Of a stretch of DNA of 64,000 nt, positions 4,263 through 15,713 are shown piece by piece. The first letter of the stretch is position 1. Each line of letters opens with the position of its first letter. The position numbers and the translations under genes are program-made. The stretch spans positions 85,524-149,523 of the forward strand of contig NZ_JAODNK010000086.1 of the NCBI RefSeq assembly GCF_025465275.1. The letters run 5' to 3'. The notes under the pieces were generated by a model, which saw nothing but the letters and a program-made list of their open reading frames with translations, was not told the origin of the DNA and ran no database searches. The stretch comes from Nocardia sp. GTDB lineage: Bacteria > Actinomycetota > Actinomycetes > Mycobacteriales > Mycobacteriaceae.

Positions 4263-4309
4263 ATTCCTTTGTGACACACACGAAGTCGTCTACGAAGGAA
4301 GACTGTGTG

Positions 4310-4332
4310 CTCGGCGAGATGACCTCGCCGAG
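4310..4332 (-). terminator. Hairpin terminator after the glycosyltransferase operon
   Basis: A perfect 9-bp stem CTCGGCGAG / CTCGCCGAG with a 5-nt loop lies 10 bp after the glycosyltransferase stop codon. The U-run is weak (TCTTCCTT), as is usual for actinobacterial terminators. Confidence 0.65.
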
Positions 4333-4341
4333 CGCACGTCG

Positions 4342-5592
4342 TCAGACCTTCCGGACCGCGGCGAGTTGTGCTTCGATGATTTTCACCGCTGCGCCGACGC
4401 CGTCCTCCTCGGCGATAAGGGCTGCCAATCGAGTCGCGTTGCCGCGGAGGGTGGTATCGGTGATCGCGATGCGGATCGCCGCGGCGAGATTGTCCACGGA
4501 CAGTTTCGGATGCGGGATGGTCGCGGCGCTGACACCGAGCGCGGCCAGGCGCTCGGCCCAGAACGGCTGGTCCGAATAGACCGGTACGGCGATCGCGGGC
4601 ACCCCGGCGCGGATCCCCGCGGCGGTTGTGCCTGCGCCACAATGATGTACGACCGCGGACATGTGCGGGAACAGCCACTCGTGCGGGACCTCGCCGATGG
4701 TCATCAAGTCGTCGCCGCTCACATCCAGCTGCAACCAGCCCGCCTGCACGATCCCGCGCACACCCGCCTGCCGGAGCGCCTCGCCCACGATCTTCGATAC
4801 CCGCGCACTGTGTTCGGCGCTGCCGACCATGCTGCCGAACCCGACGAATACCGGCGGCGCTCCGGCCTTCAGAAACTCCGCCAGATCAGCGGGCGGTTCC
4901 CAATCCGTGGGCCGGGGCGGCCACCAGTAGCCGGTCACCTCCAGGCCCGGCCGCCAATCCGTGGGCCGCGGCGCCACATTCGGCGAATAGCCGTGCAGCA
5001 CCAGCCATTGCGCGGCCGTCCGGCGACGGCGAAGTTCCCGCATGGAGACCTCCGGCAGGCCCAACTCGCGGCGGAAACCCGCGACGACCCCGCCGAAAAC
5101 ACGATCGATGATCCACGCGCCGATCCCTGCGGCCCACCGGTTGCCGGTTGCGCCGAGGGAAACCGCGCCCATCGAGGCAGGTGGGTGGTCACCGGTCGAG
5201 GACATCGGCTGGAAGCGCAGCCCGATGGCCGGAATGCCCTTGGCCTCCGCGAGCGCGAAGCCCGCGAACTCGGTCAATTGCGCAAGCAGCAGCAGATCGG
5301 CGGGTTCGTCGCGCAGGGCCGCGATCATGCCCTCCCCCATGCCCCGGACACCGCGGGGGGAAGCGAACTTCCACCCGGCCTTCCGCTTGTCGACATCGGG
5401 ATCGGTCATATCAACATCGACATTGGTGTCCATCTCCCGGAATTCGAGGCCGCATCCGGTGATCAGGTCGGCGAAGACCGAATGCGCGGCCACCACAACC
5501 TCGTGCCCGACCTCCCGCAATCGCAGTCCGAGACCGGTCAGCGGCGCGATATCACCGCGGCTGCCGATGCCGGCCATAATGATCCTGCTCAT
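4342..5592 (-). CDS. MGT-type glycosyltransferase (UDP/NDP-sugar, GT1-like)
   Basis: A GT-B fold glycosyltransferase of the macroside/rhamnosyltransferase type (416 aa). The N-terminal acceptor domain opens MSRIIMAGIGSRGDIAPLTG; the C-terminal donor domain has VFVGFGSM and HHCGAGTTAAGIRAGVP, the His/Gly-rich sugar-nucleotide signature, then PVYSDQPFWAERL. The ATG at 5592 overlaps the stop of the condensation-domain gene by 4 bp (ATGA), so translation is coupled. Homologues glycosylate glycopeptidolipids, macrolides or small lipids; the acceptor here is unknown. It is the last gene of a four-gene operon and is followed by a hairpin. The ORF-track extension to 5790 is a shadow. Confidence 0.88.
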   Translation of the reverse strand: MSRIIMAGIGSRGDIAPLTGLGLRLREVGHEVVVAAHSVFADLITGCGLEFREMDTNVDVDMTDPDVDKRKAGWKFASPRGVRGMGEGMIAALRDEPADLLLLAQLTEFAGFALAEAKGIPAIGLRFQPMSSTGDHPPASMGAVSLGATGNRWAAGIGAWIIDRVFGGVVAGFRRELGLPEVSMRELRRRRTAAQWLVLHGYSPNVAPRPTDWRPGLEVTGYWWPPRPTDWEPPADLAEFLKAGAPPVFVGFGSMVGSAEHSARVSKIVGEALRQAGVRGIVQAGWLQLDVSGDDLMTIGEVPHEWLFPHMSAVVHHCGAGTTAAGIRAGVPAIAVPVYSDQPFWAERLAALGVSAATIPHPKLSVDNLAAAIRIAITDTTLRGNATRLAALIAEEDGVGAAVKIIEAQLAAVRKV

Positions 5593-6860
5593 GCCACCTC
5601 CACCGTTCCGATAATCGACAACCACTGCGCCACAATCTCTTTCACCCGATCGATGCCGATACCGCCGGTCGGCGAGTGCACCGAGTAGTGCACGCGCCGG
5701 ACACCGTCGTTCTGGCTCGCGCCGAGGAACATGCTCAGATCGAACACCGTGAGGCGCGCCTGCTCGCGGGAGTGCGCGCCCGGAATCCACACGCCGACAT
5801 CACCGAGGAAGTTGAAGTAGAACTTCGGGAAGTTGAATTCGATGAGCCGCGACCAGCTCTCGGGGTGATGCCAGAACAGCAGCGTGAAATCCTCCGGATT
5901 CTCCGGGTAGGTGGCAATCGCATCGCGCATGCGGTCGCTGTGACTGCCTGCCACCGGTCGCACCAGCCAGGGGTAATCGTCCGAGAGCCAGGCGACGGTC
6001 CGGCCGAGGTCGGTCCCCGGACGGAGCCGGCTGTAGCGGCCGTGCTTCTGCACCTGCACGGGCCGCGCGACACCGGTGACATCCTCGATCGCCAAACCCA
6101 GTGCCACGAGCAGAATCCGGGTGTAGGAACAGTCCAGCGCCGTGGGCAGTTCATCGAGCAACCGTTCCGCGACAGCACCTTCGATCACGCCGTCCAGGAA
6201 TGCGGATTCGGGTGCGGCGGGCCGGGTCTCGATATTGGGTTCGCTATCGGAGGCGCCGACCCAGTAGTCCACATCGGCGGCACGTGTGAGCGCGTACTCG
6301 TCCAGGAAAGCAGCCCAGTCCGAGCCGGTCGTCTGCTCCGGCGCCAGCGCAATGGTCTCGCCCGCTTCCCATTGCCGCACATAGGTCGCGACGTCGTCCC
6401 ACATCACCCACATGGCGACGCCGTCGATGGCGATGTGGTGAATGGTGAGCAGCAGAATATTGACATCCGTCGACCGGGTGAGCAGCGCCGCGGTCACGAG
6501 CTTGCCCGAGGGCGGGTCGAGCCGCAGATTACTCTTGGCGGTCTCCTCCTCCATCAACTGCGGCAGCAGGTTGTGGTCCAGATTCTCGATATCGACGGTC
6601 CGCACATCGATTCTGGCGGTATCGATCTCGCCGCCGGATGCGGGCTCGATGAGGCAGGTGGCCTCCATCCCGTAGCTGTAGCGGCTGCGCAGCGACTCGT
6701 GATTGTCCATGAGCGCATTGATCAGATGCTGCGCCTGTTCCAATCCCATGGAGACCGGAACGGGGCAGGGGATGGTGATCCCGAACAGGGCCGGATTCGG
6801 ATCCCACATCAGGAACTTCTTGGCGGCGGCGGTCAGCCGCCCGGGGCGCAGGTCTGTCAT
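5589..6860 (-). CDS. Stand-alone condensation-domain protein (acyltransferase-like)
   Basis: A free-standing NRPS-type condensation/PapA-like acyltransferase domain (423 aa). The active-site motif HHIAIDG (HHxxxDG) is intact at about residues 145-151, and a C-terminal NFLGDVG segment resembles the domain's latch/floor region. No adenylation or carrier domain is attached or nearby, so it should act in trans on a CoA- or carrier-bound acyl group. The ATG at 6860 has a CGAGGAC ribosome site and sits 11 bp after the acetyltransferase stop; the ORF-track start at 7211 overlaps that gene. Family members esterify or amidate lipids, sugars or amino-acid conjugates. The substrate is not predictable. 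Confidence 0.8.
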   Translation of the reverse strand: MTDLRPGRLTAAAKKFLMWDPNPALFGITIPCPVPVSMGLEQAQHLINALMDNHESLRSRYSYGMEATCLIEPASGGEIDTARIDVRTVDIENLDHNLLPQLMEEETAKSNLRLDPPSGKLVTAALLTRSTDVNILLLTIHHIAIDGVAMWVMWDDVATYVRQWEAGETIALAPEQTTGSDWAAFLDEYALTRAADVDYWVGASDSEPNIETRPAAPESAFLDGVIEGAVAERLLDELPTALDCSYTRILLVALGLAIEDVTGVARPVQVQKHGRYSRLRPGTDLGRTVAWLSDDYPWLVRPVAGSHSDRMRDAIATYPENPEDFTLLFWHHPESWSRLIEFNFPKFYFNFLGDVGVWIPGAHSREQARLTVFDLSMFLGASQNDGVRRVHYSVHSPTGGIGIDRVKEIVAQWLSIIGTVEVA

Positions 6861-6871
6861 GAATGTCCTCG

Positions 6872-8080
6872 TCAGAAGGGGGTGATATTGAAAGGCCGCC
6901 GAGTCGGGACCAATGCCTGATCCAGGGCCGCGACCGCACCGGCGGTGAGCTCCTCGATCCGTCCGGCGCGGTGCAGTTCCAGTGGCGTATGCGCACCGAA
7001 GTAGCTGCTGGCGAGCTCGACCGGGCCGAGGCGCAGGTCCGCCTGGGCGTCGCCGGGCGCAGGTTCCCAGCTGCCCTGACCATCGGTGATGTCGAGGAGG
7101 AACAGGCCCGGGCTCATGCCGTACGGATCGTCGACCCGTATCACGCCGTGGAAGTCCGCGCGATAGGTGCGCAGCCGGAAGGCCTTGGCGGCCTTCAGGA
7201 TCCACATCCATACGCCGGTGTCGACCCCGGTCACCGCGGCGACCCGCGGATCCTCCAGCAGTAGCGGTGTCGGATCGTCCACCGCGGTGTCCATCCGGAC
7301 CTCGTTGTATTCGCCGTGTCCCAGCAGGCAGCGCAGCAGTTCGCGGTGCGCGGCGACAGTGAGCACGCAGAAATCACGCACCAGCACGGTATCCCCGACA
7401 AGATCGAACACCACATAGCCGTCCGGATGGACGATCACGCACGACTGGTCGTCGAAGGTTGCGGGCCAGAAGAATTCACCACGACTCAGGGCCGCCGGAA
7501 TGGACTGCTGCCAGCGATCGTAGATCTCCCGCAGGCGCGGGCGGGCCGCACTGGGGCGCAGCTCCCGCACCAGGGCCGAATCATCGCCGCCCGCACGCAG
7601 TTTCGCGCGCCGGCGGTCGATGCGCAGATGCCGGGTATGACTGGCCACCCCGACCGCGCCGTAATTGCCGCCCGGTCCCGGCATGGCGGCGAAGACGTCC
7701 GCACCGGTCTCCAGCGCGATGTACATCATCTCGGCCTGGATCTTGGAGTACAGCCCGCGCTTCTGATGAGTGGTGGCGACCATGCCCTGCGCACACGCCG
7801 CGACCTGCAGTTGTGCGCCGCCGGGCACCGTGGTGCTCATCCGGATCACCGAGCCGGTGCCGACGATGAACGGCGCGTCCGGATCCGAAACATCCTCGGC
7901 CACAATGATATCGGTGAGCAGGAACTGCTGTTTCCAGCTCTCGAAGTCCTTGGTACGCACACCGCCGAAAGCGCGGGAGTAGCAGTCACGCAGGGCATCC
8001 CAATCGTCCTCGCGGGCCCGGCGGATGATCAGGCCGTCAACGGCGAGGCCCTCCCGGTAGGACATGAGCTCGGAAATCAT
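6872..8080 (-). CDS. Eis-like GNAT N-acetyltransferase
   Basis: A 402-residue three-part protein of the Eis (enhanced intracellular survival) family: N-terminal GNAT (IRRAREDDWDALRDCYSRAF), a central GNAT-like region and a C-terminal sterol-carrier-like domain. The acetyl-CoA loop TTHQKRGLYSK fits the GNAT pyrophosphate site. The chain ends in a free phenylalanine (NITPF); in mycobacterial Eis the C-terminal carboxylate is the catalytic base, so this ending supports the assignment. Eis enzymes multi-acetylate amines, including aminoglycosides. Here the gene overlaps the oxidoreductase upstream (ATGA, 8077-8080) and precedes the condensation-domain gene, so a biosynthetic amine substrate is at least as likely as resistance. 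Confidence 0.85.
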   Translation of the reverse strand: MISELMSYREGLAVDGLIIRRAREDDWDALRDCYSRAFGGVRTKDFESWKQQFLLTDIIVAEDVSDPDAPFIVGTGSVIRMSTTVPGGAQLQVAACAQGMVATTHQKRGLYSKIQAEMMYIALETGADVFAAMPGPGGNYGAVGVASHTRHLRIDRRRAKLRAGGDDSALVRELRPSAARPRLREIYDRWQQSIPAALSRGEFFWPATFDDQSCVIVHPDGYVVFDLVGDTVLVRDFCVLTVAAHRELLRCLLGHGEYNEVRMDTAVDDPTPLLLEDPRVAAVTGVDTGVWMWILKAAKAFRLRTYRADFHGVIRVDDPYGMSPGLFLLDITDGQGSWEPAPGDAQADLRLGPVELASSYFGAHTPLELHRAGRIEELTAGAVAALDQALVPTRRPFNITPF

Positions 8081-9114
8081 GCGTGCACGCCTTTCGTAGT
8101 GCGGGAATCGGTGTGCGCCGAGTCCTGCGCAGCGCCGATGCGGGGCAGCACCTCGTCACCGAGCAATCGCAGACCGGCCCAGCCCGCCGCCACCGGCAGG
8201 CCGCCGATCAACGGGTTCACAATGATTTCGGTACGGCCACCGGTGATTTGGGCGAGCAGCTGGCCGGGAGTCAGGATTTCGGCGTATCCGTGTGCCCGCA
8301 CCCGCTCGACGGAACTCACCGAGGCTTCATTGGGGCGCGGCAGTCCGGCCCGCCGCCAGGAAGCGTATTCGCGGGCCTCATTGAGGATGTACGGCCCGAA
8401 TTCCGCCCATGCCGCATCCGGATCCTCGTGCAGCAGTGTGATTCTGCTGCCAGGCTCGGGCCGATGCACAAAGCCCTGGTGGCCGTGAATTTCCAGCTCC
8501 CGCAGGTACAGCGCCTCGAGCGAGGGCATGGACATCGGCGGCGAGTAGGGCAGCCCGAACCGGGCGGCACGGCGGGCCGCCGCCTCGGTCATGCCGCCGA
8601 CGAACAGCAGCGGGTGCGGTTTCGTGAACGGTTTGGGCGTGACATCGATCAGCGCGCCGTTGTACTCGAACGGCGCATCACCCCAGGCCGCCAGCATGAC
8701 CTCGAGCGCGGTATCCATGAGCTGCCCGCGCCGGGCCCAGTCGCGGCCCATCGCGGCGTATTCCGCCGGCCGGTAACCCATTCCGGCGACAATGGCCAGC
8801 CGACCACCGGAAAGGTTGTCCAGCACCGCTATGTCCTCGGCCAGCCGCACCGGGTCGTACAGCGGTACCAGCAGGGCGCTGATACTCACCCCCGCAGTGC
8901 GGGTGCGGGCCGCTATCGCCGAGGCCAGCAGCAGCGGCGAGGGCAGCCACCCGGTACCGGAGAGATGGTGTTCCTCGCAGCTGACGGCGGCGAACCCGTG
9001 CCGATCGGCGTACTCGGCCATCTCCAGCGCCGCCTGATACCGCTGCTGGTGCCCCGCGGCGGGATCGTCGATATTGGTCATATTCAATCGGAGCGCGGTC
9101 ACCACGGGCGACAT
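8077..9114 (-). CDS. LLM-class (F420- or flavin-dependent) oxidoreductase
   Basis: A luciferase-like TIM-barrel oxidoreductase, 345 aa. It shows MAEYADRHGFAAVSCEEHH near the N-terminus, ARTRTAGVSISALLVPLYDP, and the GMGYRPAEYAAMGRDWARRG segment typical of the family. The ATG at 9114 is chosen because GCGGAG precedes it by 8 nt and because the longer ORF runs into non-conserved sequence. It is the first gene of the four-gene operon and overlaps the Eis-like gene by 4 bp. In actinomycetes such enzymes usually use reduced F420 or FMN to oxidise or reduce a small molecule; which cofactor applies cannot be read here. Confidence 0.83.
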   Translation of the reverse strand: MSPVVTALRLNMTNIDDPAAGHQQRYQAALEMAEYADRHGFAAVSCEEHHLSGTGWLPSPLLLASAIAARTRTAGVSISALLVPLYDPVRLAEDIAVLDNLSGGRLAIVAGMGYRPAEYAAMGRDWARRGQLMDTALEVMLAAWGDAPFEYNGALIDVTPKPFTKPHPLLFVGGMTEAAARRAARFGLPYSPPMSMPSLEALYLRELEIHGHQGFVHRPEPGSRITLLHEDPDAAWAEFGPYILNEAREYASWRRAGLPRPNEASVSSVERVRAHGYAEILTPGQLLAQITGGRTEIIVNPLIGGLPVAAGWAGLRLLGDEVLPRIGAAQDSAHTDSRTTKGVHA

Positions 9115-9195: not shown

Positions 9196-9235
9196 CGGTA
9201 CCACTGGGCGGATATCCGCCGCCCACCGGTACCAC
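9196..9235. promoter_or_regulatory. Palindrome flanked by direct repeats in divergent promoter
   Basis: The 298-bp gap between the oxidoreductase operon and the divergent hydrolase holds no gene. It contains the perfect 14-bp palindrome GGCGGATATCCGCC (9207-9220) framed by two copies of CGGTACCAC (9196-9204 and 9227-9235), 31 bp apart, about three helical turns. This symmetry suggests a regulator-binding array controlling one or both operons; no regulator gene is adjacent. Confidence 0.45.
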
Positions 9236-9412
9236 CGGCAGGGGCACCCCGCGCACTGACGTACCTTCGCAGTGCCGCGGCGGCGCGCCCGGACGTGGTT
9301 TCCCCCCGGAAGCTCCGCGAAAAGTGGCCTGCCGCGCGATGATTCCTGGGTATCGGCCCCGTCTGCATTGGTAAAGCCCCTCTTCAGTGTTCGCACACGA
9401 AGGATTCCCGCC

Positions 9413-13103: not shown

Positions 13104-13158
13104 TTGACATCGGCCCGCCGCAACCTGGATAGTTGCACTCTACTTGATTCAGAGTGCA
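13104..13158 (+). promoter_or_regulatory. Sigma70-like promoter overlapped by TetR operator
   Basis: TTGACA (13104) and GATAGT (13128) are separated by 18 bp and point toward the 13204 gene. The perfect inverted repeat TGCACTCT-N9-AGAGTGCA (13134-13158) begins right after the -10 box, across the expected start of transcription. A repressor bound there would block initiation, which fits the adjacent TetR gene. A GGAGG ribosome site follows at 13195. Confidence 0.65.
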
Positions 13159-13203
13159 CTTAACGCACTTTCATGTCAACAAGATGCACATTTCGGAGGA
13201 TTC

Positions 13204-14124
13204 GTGGCACTACCCGCAGACTGGGCCGACCGGCTGGCGCTCCCGCTGATCGCCGCCCCGATGACCGGCGTGTCCGGCCCGGAACTGGTGGCCACGGCGT
13301 GCCGCAATGGTGTGATCGGCTCCTTCCCGACACACAATGCGGCCACCCCCGAGCTACTCGACGAATGGCTGACCCGCATCGCCGCGGATCTGCCGCCCGG
13401 GGCAGCGCCGATCGCACCCAATCTGGTGGTGCATCGCACCAACGCGCGCCTGACCGCCGACCTGGATCGACTCATCGCGCATCGCGTCGAACTGGTCATC
13501 ACCAGCGTCGGCTCCCCCGCACCCGTCATCGAACCGCTGCACCGGGCGGGCTGCCGCGTCTTCGCCGATGTCGCGACCCTGCGCCATGCCGAACGCGCTT
13601 TGGCCGCCGGCGTGGACGGCCTCATCCTGCTCACTGCGGGCGCAGGCGGCCAGACCGGATCGGCCAACCCCTTCGCCTTCGCGCGCGCGGTACGCGAAAC
13701 CTTCAGTGGCCCCATTGTCTTGGCCGGTGGCATCAGCGACGGCCACGCACTGCTGGCCGCCCAGGCACTGGGCGCGGACCTGGCCTATATGGGCACCGGA
13801 TTCATCGCCACGCCGGAAAGCCTGGCGCGCGAGGACTATCAGGCCGCGGTCGTCGCCGCGACCCTCGATGATGTCCGCGAGACCGCGCACGTCGGCGGAC
13901 TGCCCGCCAACCTGCTCACCGAGTGGCTGGACGCCCATGCCGCCCAGCAGGTTTCGGCAGGCGACTTCCAGACCGAACGGCTCCTGGGCGGGAACACCGT
14001 GTGGAGTGCCGGGCATTCGGTCTCCGGCGTGCACGGCGTGACCCCGGTCGCCGAGGTCATCGACCGCGTGCGGCGCGAATACCACGAGGCCCGCACCGCA
14101 CTTCTCGAAACCTCTTGCAAGTGA
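13204..14124 (+). CDS. Nitronate monooxygenase-like flavoprotein (2-NPD family)
   Basis: A 306-residue FMN TIM-barrel of the nitronate monooxygenase/2-nitropropane dioxygenase family. It has LPLIAAPMTGVSGPEL at the start, NLVVHRTN, and the phosphate-binding PIVLAGGISDG plus GADLAYMGTGFIATPES. The segment that in true nitronate monooxygenases carries the catalytic His (AGGHxG) reads TAGAGGQTGS here, so the His is absent and another oxidation or reduction is likely. The GTG at 13204 follows GGAGGATTC; the ORF-track start at 13144 would lie inside the operator. It is co-transcribed with the acyl-CoA ligase 14 bp downstream. Confidence 0.82.
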   Translation: MALPADWADRLALPLIAAPMTGVSGPELVATACRNGVIGSFPTHNAATPELLDEWLTRIAADLPPGAAPIAPNLVVHRTNARLTADLDRLIAHRVELVITSVGSPAPVIEPLHRAGCRVFADVATLRHAERALAAGVDGLILLTAGAGGQTGSANPFAFARAVRETFSGPIVLAGGISDGHALLAAQALGADLAYMGTGFIATPESLAREDYQAAVVAATLDDVRETAHVGGLPANLLTEWLDAHAAQQVSAGDFQTERLLGGNTVWSAGHSVSGVHGVTPVAEVIDRVRREYHEARTALLETSCK

Positions 14125-14138
14125 ACGGAACAACTGCC

Positions 14139-15713
14139 ATGACGGACCAGAACTCACTATGGGGCCCGGTCACCCGGGTCCTCGATCGAGCCTGCACCTA
14201 CTACTCCGACCGCACCGCGCTGATTGCCGGTGACCGGTCGCTGACCTACACCGAACTGCGATCGGTGACCAATCGCATTGCCAATGGCCTTCTCGCCCTG
14301 GGCATTACCCCCGGCGAACGCGTGGGCCTGCTCATGCCGAACATCCTGGAATTCGTGCCCACCCAGTACGGGATCTGGAAGTCGGGCGCCGTACCCGTGC
14401 AGATGGCCGCGAAGGCTTCCGCCGAGGACCACCGCTACTTTCTGACCGAATCCGGTGCCACCACTCTGATTTATCACGCGTCGTTCGACGCGACCGTCGC
14501 GGCGCTCGCGGATCAGGTGCCCACGCTGCGGCGGCTGATTCGCCTGGGCGAGCAGCCCGGCGACTCGGCGGCCGATTACTACGAAATCTTCGGCACCCAA
14601 GACGATTCCACACCGCCCGTGGATATCGGCCCGGGTGATCCCGCCCAGATCATGTTCACCTCCGGATCCACCGGAACCCCCAAGGGCGTGCTGTTCACAC
14701 ACGATCGGCTGAGCCACTATCTGCTCACCGCGGGCCTCGAAATCGGTGATACCCGCCCCGGCGAGGTCTTCGCGCACGGTGCGCCGCTGACCCACTTCAC
14801 CCAGATCTTCCTGCTGCCGACCTTCCTGCGCGGCGGCGCCAATGTGATCATGCCGGGCCTGGACGTGGACACGCTGCTCGATACCATCGTCCGGCATCGC
14901 GCGACGGCCACCGCCGTCGTGCCCACGGTGATCTATCTGATGCTCACCCATCCGAAACTCGCTGCGGCAGATCTGTCTTCGCTGGGCACGGTGATCTACG
15001 CCGGTTCACCCATGGCGCCGGAGAAGCTGCGCACGGCGATCGAGGCGCTCGGCCCGGTCTTCATCCAGACGTACGCGGGCACCGAACCGGGTTTCATCAG
15101 CTGTCTGCGCAAACAGGACCATATGCTCGACGATCCCGCCGCCCTCGCGCGGCTCGGCTCCGCCGGTCGTCCCCTGTTCCACGTCGATGTCTCCATTCAG
15201 GACGAACAGGACCGGCACCTGCCCGTCGGCGAGACCGGGGAGATCTGTGCGCGCCAACTCGGCCGCATGTCCGGCTATCTGGACTCGGGCAAGGACACCG
15301 AGGCACTCCGTGACGGCTGGGTGCACTCCGGCGATATCGGCTACCTCGACGCCGACGGCTATCTGTTCCTGGTGGACCGCAAGAAGGACCTTGTTGTCAC
15401 CGGCGGTTTCAATGTCTTCCCGCGTCAGGTCGAAGATGTCCTCACCCAGCACGCGGCGGTCGCCCAGTGCGCGGTCATCGGCATCCCGCATCCGAAATGG
15501 GGTGAGGCGGTGCATGCGGTCGTCGTCCCGAAGCCCGGCCACACCGTCACGGCGGAGCAACTGATCGCGCTGGTCAAGGCGCACAAAGGCAGCGTCTGGG
15601 CGCCCAAGACCCTCGACTTCGTGGACACCCTCCCGCTCAACGCTTCGGGCAAAGTGGACAAGAAAGCCCTGCGTGCGCCCTACTGGGCCGGACACGCCCG
15701 GCAGGTCAATTGA
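14139..15713 (+). CDS. AMP-forming acyl-CoA synthetase/ligase
   Basis: An ANL-superfamily ligase, 524 residues, activating a carboxylic acid to acyl-AMP and then acyl-CoA. Motifs in order: P-loop MFTSGSTGTPKGV, core YAGTEPG, DGWVHSGDIGYLD, the hinge VDRKKDLVVTGGFNVFP, and the catalytic Lys near NASGKVDKKAL. The ATG at 14139 lies 14 bp after the preceding stop. With the nitronate monooxygenase-like enzyme, the hydrolase and the TetR it forms a compact catabolic locus for a small, perhaps aromatic or branched, acid; the substrate is not deducible. Confidence 0.9.
   Translation: MTDQNSLWGPVTRVLDRACTYYSDRTALIAGDRSLTYTELRSVTNRIANGLLALGITPGERVGLLMPNILEFVPTQYGIWKSGAVPVQMAAKASAEDHRYFLTESGATTLIYHASFDATVAALADQVPTLRRLIRLGEQPGDSAADYYEIFGTQDDSTPPVDIGPGDPAQIMFTSGSTGTPKGVLFTHDRLSHYLLTAGLEIGDTRPGEVFAHGAPLTHFTQIFLLPTFLRGGANVIMPGLDVDTLLDTIVRHRATATAVVPTVIYLMLTHPKLAAADLSSLGTVIYAGSPMAPEKLRTAIEALGPVFIQTYAGTEPGFISCLRKQDHMLDDPAALARLGSAGRPLFHVDVSIQDEQDRHLPVGETGEICARQLGRMSGYLDSGKDTEALRDGWVHSGDIGYLDADGYLFLVDRKKDLVVTGGFNVFPRQVEDVLTQHAAVAQCAVIGIPHPKWGEAVHAVVVPKPGHTVTAEQLIALVKAHKGSVWAPKTLDFVDTLPLNASGKVDKKALRAPYWAGHARQVN

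Follow-up and report, generated by a model that had tools for sequence, protein, structure and literature searches.

The 64,000-nucleotide stretch of Nocardia sp. DNA analyzed here (the window) contains an operon of four genes, which encode an LLM-class (luciferase-like) oxidoreductase (LLM), an Eis-like N-acetyltransferase (Eis), a stand-alone protein of the condensation superfamily (C protein) and an MGT-type glycosyltransferase (GT; Table 1). The window sits on contig C147 of a genome of 9.67 Mb (G000, the window genome). We propose that an aminocyclitol pathway is split in this genome and that the operon is probably its tailoring half; the two loci of the pathway would form one regulon. 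Aminocyclitols are small sugar-like rings and the core type of aminoglycoside antibiotics. The scaffold half is found on a separate contig, C128, and encodes a 2-deoxy-scyllo-inosose synthase (DOIS) with an L-glutamine:2-deoxy-scyllo-inosose aminotransferase (AT) next to it. The operon was described as an orphan in the initial annotation. This description is not supported: the scaffold genes lie in trans, behind the same promoter, and relatives have them in cis.

The nearest match of the DOIS is BtrC (E 1e-71), followed by dehydroquinate synthase (1e-40) and valiolone synthase (7e-20). The AT belongs to the DegT/StrS family, and its nearest matches are L-glutamine:2-deoxy-scyllo-inosose aminotransferases (E 3e-95), with the next kind at 2e-48. 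As judged from these similarities, it is strongly supported that DOIS and AT make 2-deoxy-scyllo-inosamine (DOIA) in the window genome. The two genes are 71-74% identical to the pair of N. inohanensis, one of six genomes (with N. acididurans, N. yamanashiensis, N. stercoris, N. salmonicida and N. crassostreae) in which the tailoring genes come immediately after DOIS-AT. An α/β hydrolase and an XRE/MmyB-type regulator precede DOIS on C128, and the linked genomes likewise have both of them with DOIS.

The two halves share a conserved candidate promoter element, in which TTGCCA is a plausible -35 sequence; AATATT (9135-9130) is a plausible -10. When the window genome was scanned with up to three mismatches allowed, the element was found exactly twice, both times as a perfect match, and the reversed-pattern control gave none. 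One site is ahead of the operon and the other is upstream of DOIS on C128, at nearly equal spacing. Exactly two copies, one for each half, were also found in G271, N. jejuensis and N. uniformis; in G271, which is a near-complete genome, the two loci are 3.1 Mb apart. The linked genomes that match the element have a single copy, before DOIS. Across the genus the element is matched in 15 of the 16 genomes that carry the pathway; among the 136 others it is matched in 1, as against 7 for the reversed control. Degenerate copies, with 4-9 mismatches, lie ahead of the LLM-C operons in N. niigatensis, N. terrae and G485, of the LLM operons in G065 and SYP-A9097, and of DOIS in N. stercoris. Upstream of the element in the window there are two direct repeats that may serve as regulator sites, and similar pairs (30-31 bp apart and at equal distance to the element) are found before the N. 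inohanensis DOIS and the C-GT operon of N. uniformis. We infer that the element functions as a promoter and is a target of the XRE/MmyB-type regulator encoded beside DOIS.

The distribution of the genes was analyzed by tblastn and home-made gene calls, and orthology was judged by identity and context. Orthologues of the C protein (P0003) were found in 16 of 152 Nocardia genomes, in 12 species among the GTDB contigs (Nocardia only) and in seven genomes of a family-wide sample of 401, all of them Nocardia; outside Nocardia there was none among 399 genomes of the order. All 16 of these genomes carry AT and a DOIS of at least 69% identity, and a DOIS at this level without the C protein was seen in none of the 152. 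The chance of the overlap between the C protein and all 21 DOIS genomes is 1e-17 (hypergeometric, with the genomes treated as independent). Fifteen of the 16 genomes have a single copy of Eis (at least 61% identity), and in the remaining one, N. seriolae, the DOIS-AT block runs into a contig end. The C gene, too, is present once per genome. This co-occurrence of Eis and the C protein supports the suggestion of the initial annotation that the four genes work as a unit on a single small molecule, with no need for a nonribosomal peptide synthetase (NRPS) or polyketide synthase (PKS).

Whether the four genes are conserved together has a mixed answer. The full set is found in six genomes: LLM-Eis-C-GT is contiguous in five (the window genome, G271, N. 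jejuensis, SYP-A9097 and G065), and N. stercoris has the order DOIS-LLM-AT-Eis-C-GT, with AT between LLM and Eis. The Eis-C pair is found in 11 genomes, and in four of the others, where Eis and C are apart, Eis adjoins DOIS-AT. Further arrangements are Eis-C-GT with one to three GTs (three genomes), Eis-C alone (two), LLM-C (four, one of them with a shortened GT) and C-GT-GT in N. uniformis. LLM (at least 66% identity) is encoded in 10 of the 16 genomes and GT in about 10-11, with one to three tandem copies in relatives. Thus C and Eis are the core genes, and LLM and GT are accessory rather than core. The Eis and C trees disagree in places (N. uniformis, N. niigatensis and N. terrae), as is expected if the halves were exchanged or reciprocally lost.

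Several relatives differ in their accessory genes. Three tandem GT1 glycosyltransferases are encoded in N. inohanensis and N. yamanashiensis (L007 and L011, 11269-14993), which suggests several sugars or sites. An LLM oxidoreductase of another kind, perhaps a replacement for the LLM of the window type, is encoded after C and a P450 in N. salmonicida and N. crassostreae (L012:10133-11029 and L013:12696-13346). In 9 of the 16 genomes (L176-L182, L012 and L013) a P450 gene adjoins either DOIS-AT(-Eis) or C; near either half in the window genome and in G271 no conserved P450 was seen. Other loci with DOIS-like genes were found as well. Orphan DOIS loci of a second kind (L171, L172 and L173, in G410, G477 and G496) have a DOIS of ~60% identity next to a different LLM-like oxidoreductase of ~312 amino acids, without C or Eis. 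A more distant sugar-phosphate cyclase (40%) lies amid cupin, short-chain dehydrogenase/reductase and acyl-CoA genes (L174, G475:C8:118924-120039).

The window also holds a trace of how the operon may have come to stand apart. The last codons of LLM (RTTKGVHA) and the ribosome-binding region of Eis resemble the 3' end of AT in the linked relatives, and among 526 control gene starts there was no equally good match. G065 and SYP-A9097 have a weaker trace than the window, where it is clear. Taken with the gene order of N. stercoris, the trace is best explained if the cluster was first duplicated or moved and AT was then lost from its place between LLM and Eis.

In the pathway that we propose, DOIS would cyclise glucose-6-phosphate to 2-deoxy-scyllo-inosose, which AT would convert to DOIA. 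Eis would then acylate, probably acetylate, the amine of DOIA, and the C protein would transfer a second acyl group, probably onto a hydroxyl. The donor of this group would probably be an acyl-CoA, since neither a carrier protein nor a ligase is conserved in the vicinity. GT would add a sugar to the acylated aminocyclitol and LLM, where it is encoded, would oxidise or reduce the ring or the acyl group. The gene content, linkage, co-occurrence and common promoter element are observations; the substrates, donors, order of steps and product are what we infer. Single-gene annotation of LLM, Eis and GT leads only to broad families: the PDB neighbours of LLM are PuwE, bacterial luciferases and F420-dependent enzymes, and those of GT are a sterol 3-beta-glucosyltransferase (E 2e-46) and GtfA. 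A wider possibility, to which we give somewhat less than an even chance, is that these genes define a new Nocardia family of acylated aminocyclitol glycosides, in which a descendant of an epimerization domain serves as a carrier-independent acyltransferase, an Eis homologue is a dedicated biosynthetic N-acyltransferase, and the cluster has been split in several species into two distant operons with a common promoter. Read as half of a split pathway, an unexplained operon becomes open to experiment, with DOIA as the first intermediate that is predicted. A biosynthetic cluster with its halves megabases apart under one promoter may escape genome mining that looks for clusters. The split pathway also suggests that an Eis-type acetyltransferase, from a family best known for aminoglycoside resistance, works in biosynthesis, and that the epimerization-domain fold has found a new use.

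The C protein was annotated initially as a stand-alone condensation domain; it does stand alone and does belong to the condensation superfamily, but by profile and fold it is of the epimerization-domain type. The BacC, GrsA and TycA epimerization domains rank first in the profile search, and its AlphaFold2 model (pLDDT 80) has epimerization-domain structures as all of its top 12 Foldseek matches; the nearest solved structures by the two approaches are those of BacC, GrsA, TycA, TycB3 and PvdL. It shares with the NRPS epimerization domains the motifs HHxxxD, HGR..DL.RTV.W and FNFLGD, yet it differs from them in standing alone with no carrier near and in its active site. His142 and Asp146 are invariant in the orthologues, and the Gly of HHxxxDG is not conserved (Ala in four). 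The catalytic Glu of epimerization domains (EGHGR motif) is an invariant Gln271 in 13 of 13 aligned orthologues, which makes epimerization unlikely and points to acyl transfer; the C protein would thus be a putative acyltransferase. One alternative leaves the pathway as it is and takes the C protein as a carrier-dependent condensation enzyme, or an epimerase, that is fed with an acyl or aminoacyl group by an NRPS or acyl carrier protein elsewhere in the genome. SgcC5 of C-1027 biosynthesis is a free-standing, carrier-dependent condensation enzyme of this sort, and both SgcC5 and CmnI, known free-standing enzymes that use carriers, are among the Foldseek matches; the closest folds, moreover, act on carrier-bound substrates. 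However, neither the operon nor the genes around it showed a partner carrier protein, in cis or adjacent, neither half has a conserved carrier or adenylation gene, and the promoter-pattern scan of the window genome gave no third regulon member that could be the source of the acyl donor. With the Gln at the catalytic position also against it, we regard this alternative as a minority possibility, at about one chance in a few.

Another explanation is that the operon is a unit for detoxification or self-resistance, in which Eis acetylates and GT glycosylates an incoming or self-made aminoglycoside-like compound. Eis proteins acetylate aminoglycosides, macrolide and rifamycin glycosyltransferases inactivate in a similar way, and the best NCBIfam model of the GT is a rifamycin-inactivating glycosyltransferase, although at 135 bits it is far under the cut-off. 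The window protein has the features of the Eis family: its match to M. smegmatis and M. tuberculosis Eis has an E value of 9e-36, and it has two GNAT regions with an SCP2 domain, the catalytic Tyr and a free C-terminal carboxylate. Tyr140, aligned with the general-acid Tyr126 of M. tuberculosis Eis, is invariant in nine aligned proteins, of which seven end in Phe and two in Val. What is known of mycobacterial Eis concerns resistance and host interaction, whereas the window Eis is encoded within a biosynthetic set, beside DOIS-AT or C, and each linked genome has one copy, amid biosynthetic genes. No role in resistance is known for the C protein, the promoter shared with DOIS occurs nowhere else in the genome, and no sugar genes of a full aminoglycoside were seen near DOIS, so that we consider detoxification unlikely. 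Still less probable is that the four genes have separate housekeeping roles, stand together by chance and are linked to DOIS only through common descent of one Nocardia group. The genes are indeed confined to a subset of Nocardia, and LLM relatives (58-63% identity) exist in four genomes without C. Yet the gene order was reshuffled in several ways while the set was retained, there is one Eis per genome beside either half, and an exact promoter element is common to the two distant loci of G271. The split aminocyclitol pathway is the reading that we prefer, and several points count against it: shared descent may partly explain the gene set of the 16 genomes (the probability of 1e-17 ignores relatedness); the Gln of the C protein leaves its chemistry uncertain; Eis might serve self-protection instead of synthesis; and LLM and GT may be peripheral, as they are absent from several of the genomes.

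The nearest known products are the nabscessins. In PMC11364655, the nabscessins of N. abscessus are described as DOIA derivatives with 3-hydroxybenzoate and 6-methylsalicylate, and a six-gene DOIS cluster is proposed for their biosynthesis. A cluster of the nabscessin type was found in G401 (L170, G401:C19, 1-14810), with an iterative PKS resembling 6-methylsalicylic acid (6-MSA) synthases, KS-III, a carbamoyltransferase, an FkbO/Hyg5 chorismatase, DOIS (57%), AT (62%) and an Eis homologue (35%). The two pathways thus share the DOIS-derived aminocyclitol core, the AT and an Eis-type protein, but no C-type protein or GT was seen in the G401 cluster, whereas the window pathway has these two and LLM, and the surroundings of L049 and of the window operon showed no 6-MSA-type PKS, KS-III or chorismatase. 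With the 2-deoxystreptamine pathways (butirosin, neomycin and gentamicin) the window genome shares DOIS and the L-glutamine:2-deoxy-scyllo-inosose aminotransferase. Inspection of the gene calls within 20 kb at L049 and at the window locus, with selected neighbours compared to Pfam, revealed no second-amination dehydrogenase and no paromamine-type glycosyltransferase (N-acetylglucosaminyl transferase) or deacetylase. A monoamine core is expected, unlike in the 2-deoxystreptamine pathways. Known products of two of the species were also checked and are not aminocyclitols: inohanalactone, a butyrolactone, of N. inohanensis, and the transvalencin-like uniformides of N. uniformis. A pathway of this make-up was not described in the literature searched, a search that did not extend to the original account of the nabscessin cluster.

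The four genes of the operon are real and intact and are all on the minus strand, from 9114 to 4342, in the order that was given to them initially. The ATGA overlaps are present between LLM and Eis and between C and GT, Eis and C are 11 bp apart, and the motifs HHIAIDG and HCGAGTT and the C-terminal Phe of Eis were all found in the window proteins. The closing hairpin is also present, with a stem one base pair longer than the 9 bp first reported; it has a dG of -29.6 kcal/mol (z -4.8 vs shuffles) and no U-tract.

Table 1. Features of the tailoring operon in the window and of the scaffold genes on contig C128.
Feature	Position	Strand	Remarks
LLM-class (luciferase-like) flavin/F420 oxidoreductase, operon gene 1	8077..9114	-	Pfam Bac_luciferase E 6e-40
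Eis-family GNAT + SCP2 N-acetyltransferase	6872..8080	-	Pfam Acetyltransf_9 + Acetyltransf_17 + SCP2_2
Stand-alone condensation-superfamily protein (C protein)	5589..6860	-	Pfam Condensation; nearest NRPS epimerization domains
GT1-type glycosyltransferase (GtfA / sterol-glucosyltransferase-like)	4342..5592	-	Pfam EryCIII-like_C, Glyco_transf_28
Terminator-like hairpin past last gene	4290..4341	-	10-bp perfect stem, 5-nt loop
Candidate promoter element TGACTGGGGTATCC-N6-TTGCCAA	9152..9178	-	Conserved; common to operon and unlinked DOIS-AT block
Two direct repeats GTGGTACC, candidate regulator sites	9197..9236	-	31 bp apart; upstream of promoter element
2-deoxy-scyllo-inosose synthase (DOIS), window genome	G000:C128:1950-3098		BtrC nearest
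L-Gln:DOI aminotransferase (AT), next to DOIS	L049:3133-4428		DOI aminotransferases E 3e-95

In the neighbourhood of the operon, an AMP-dependent acyl ligase is encoded 5 kb off (14136-15713). The ligase and NMO genes, which together span 13144-15713, were rejected as partners, because no close copy of them was found at the 12 orthologous loci. The window also has a TldD-like gene (864-2399) with a probable partner gene downstream of it, and comparison of the loci showed that it adjoins the operon also in the close relative G271.

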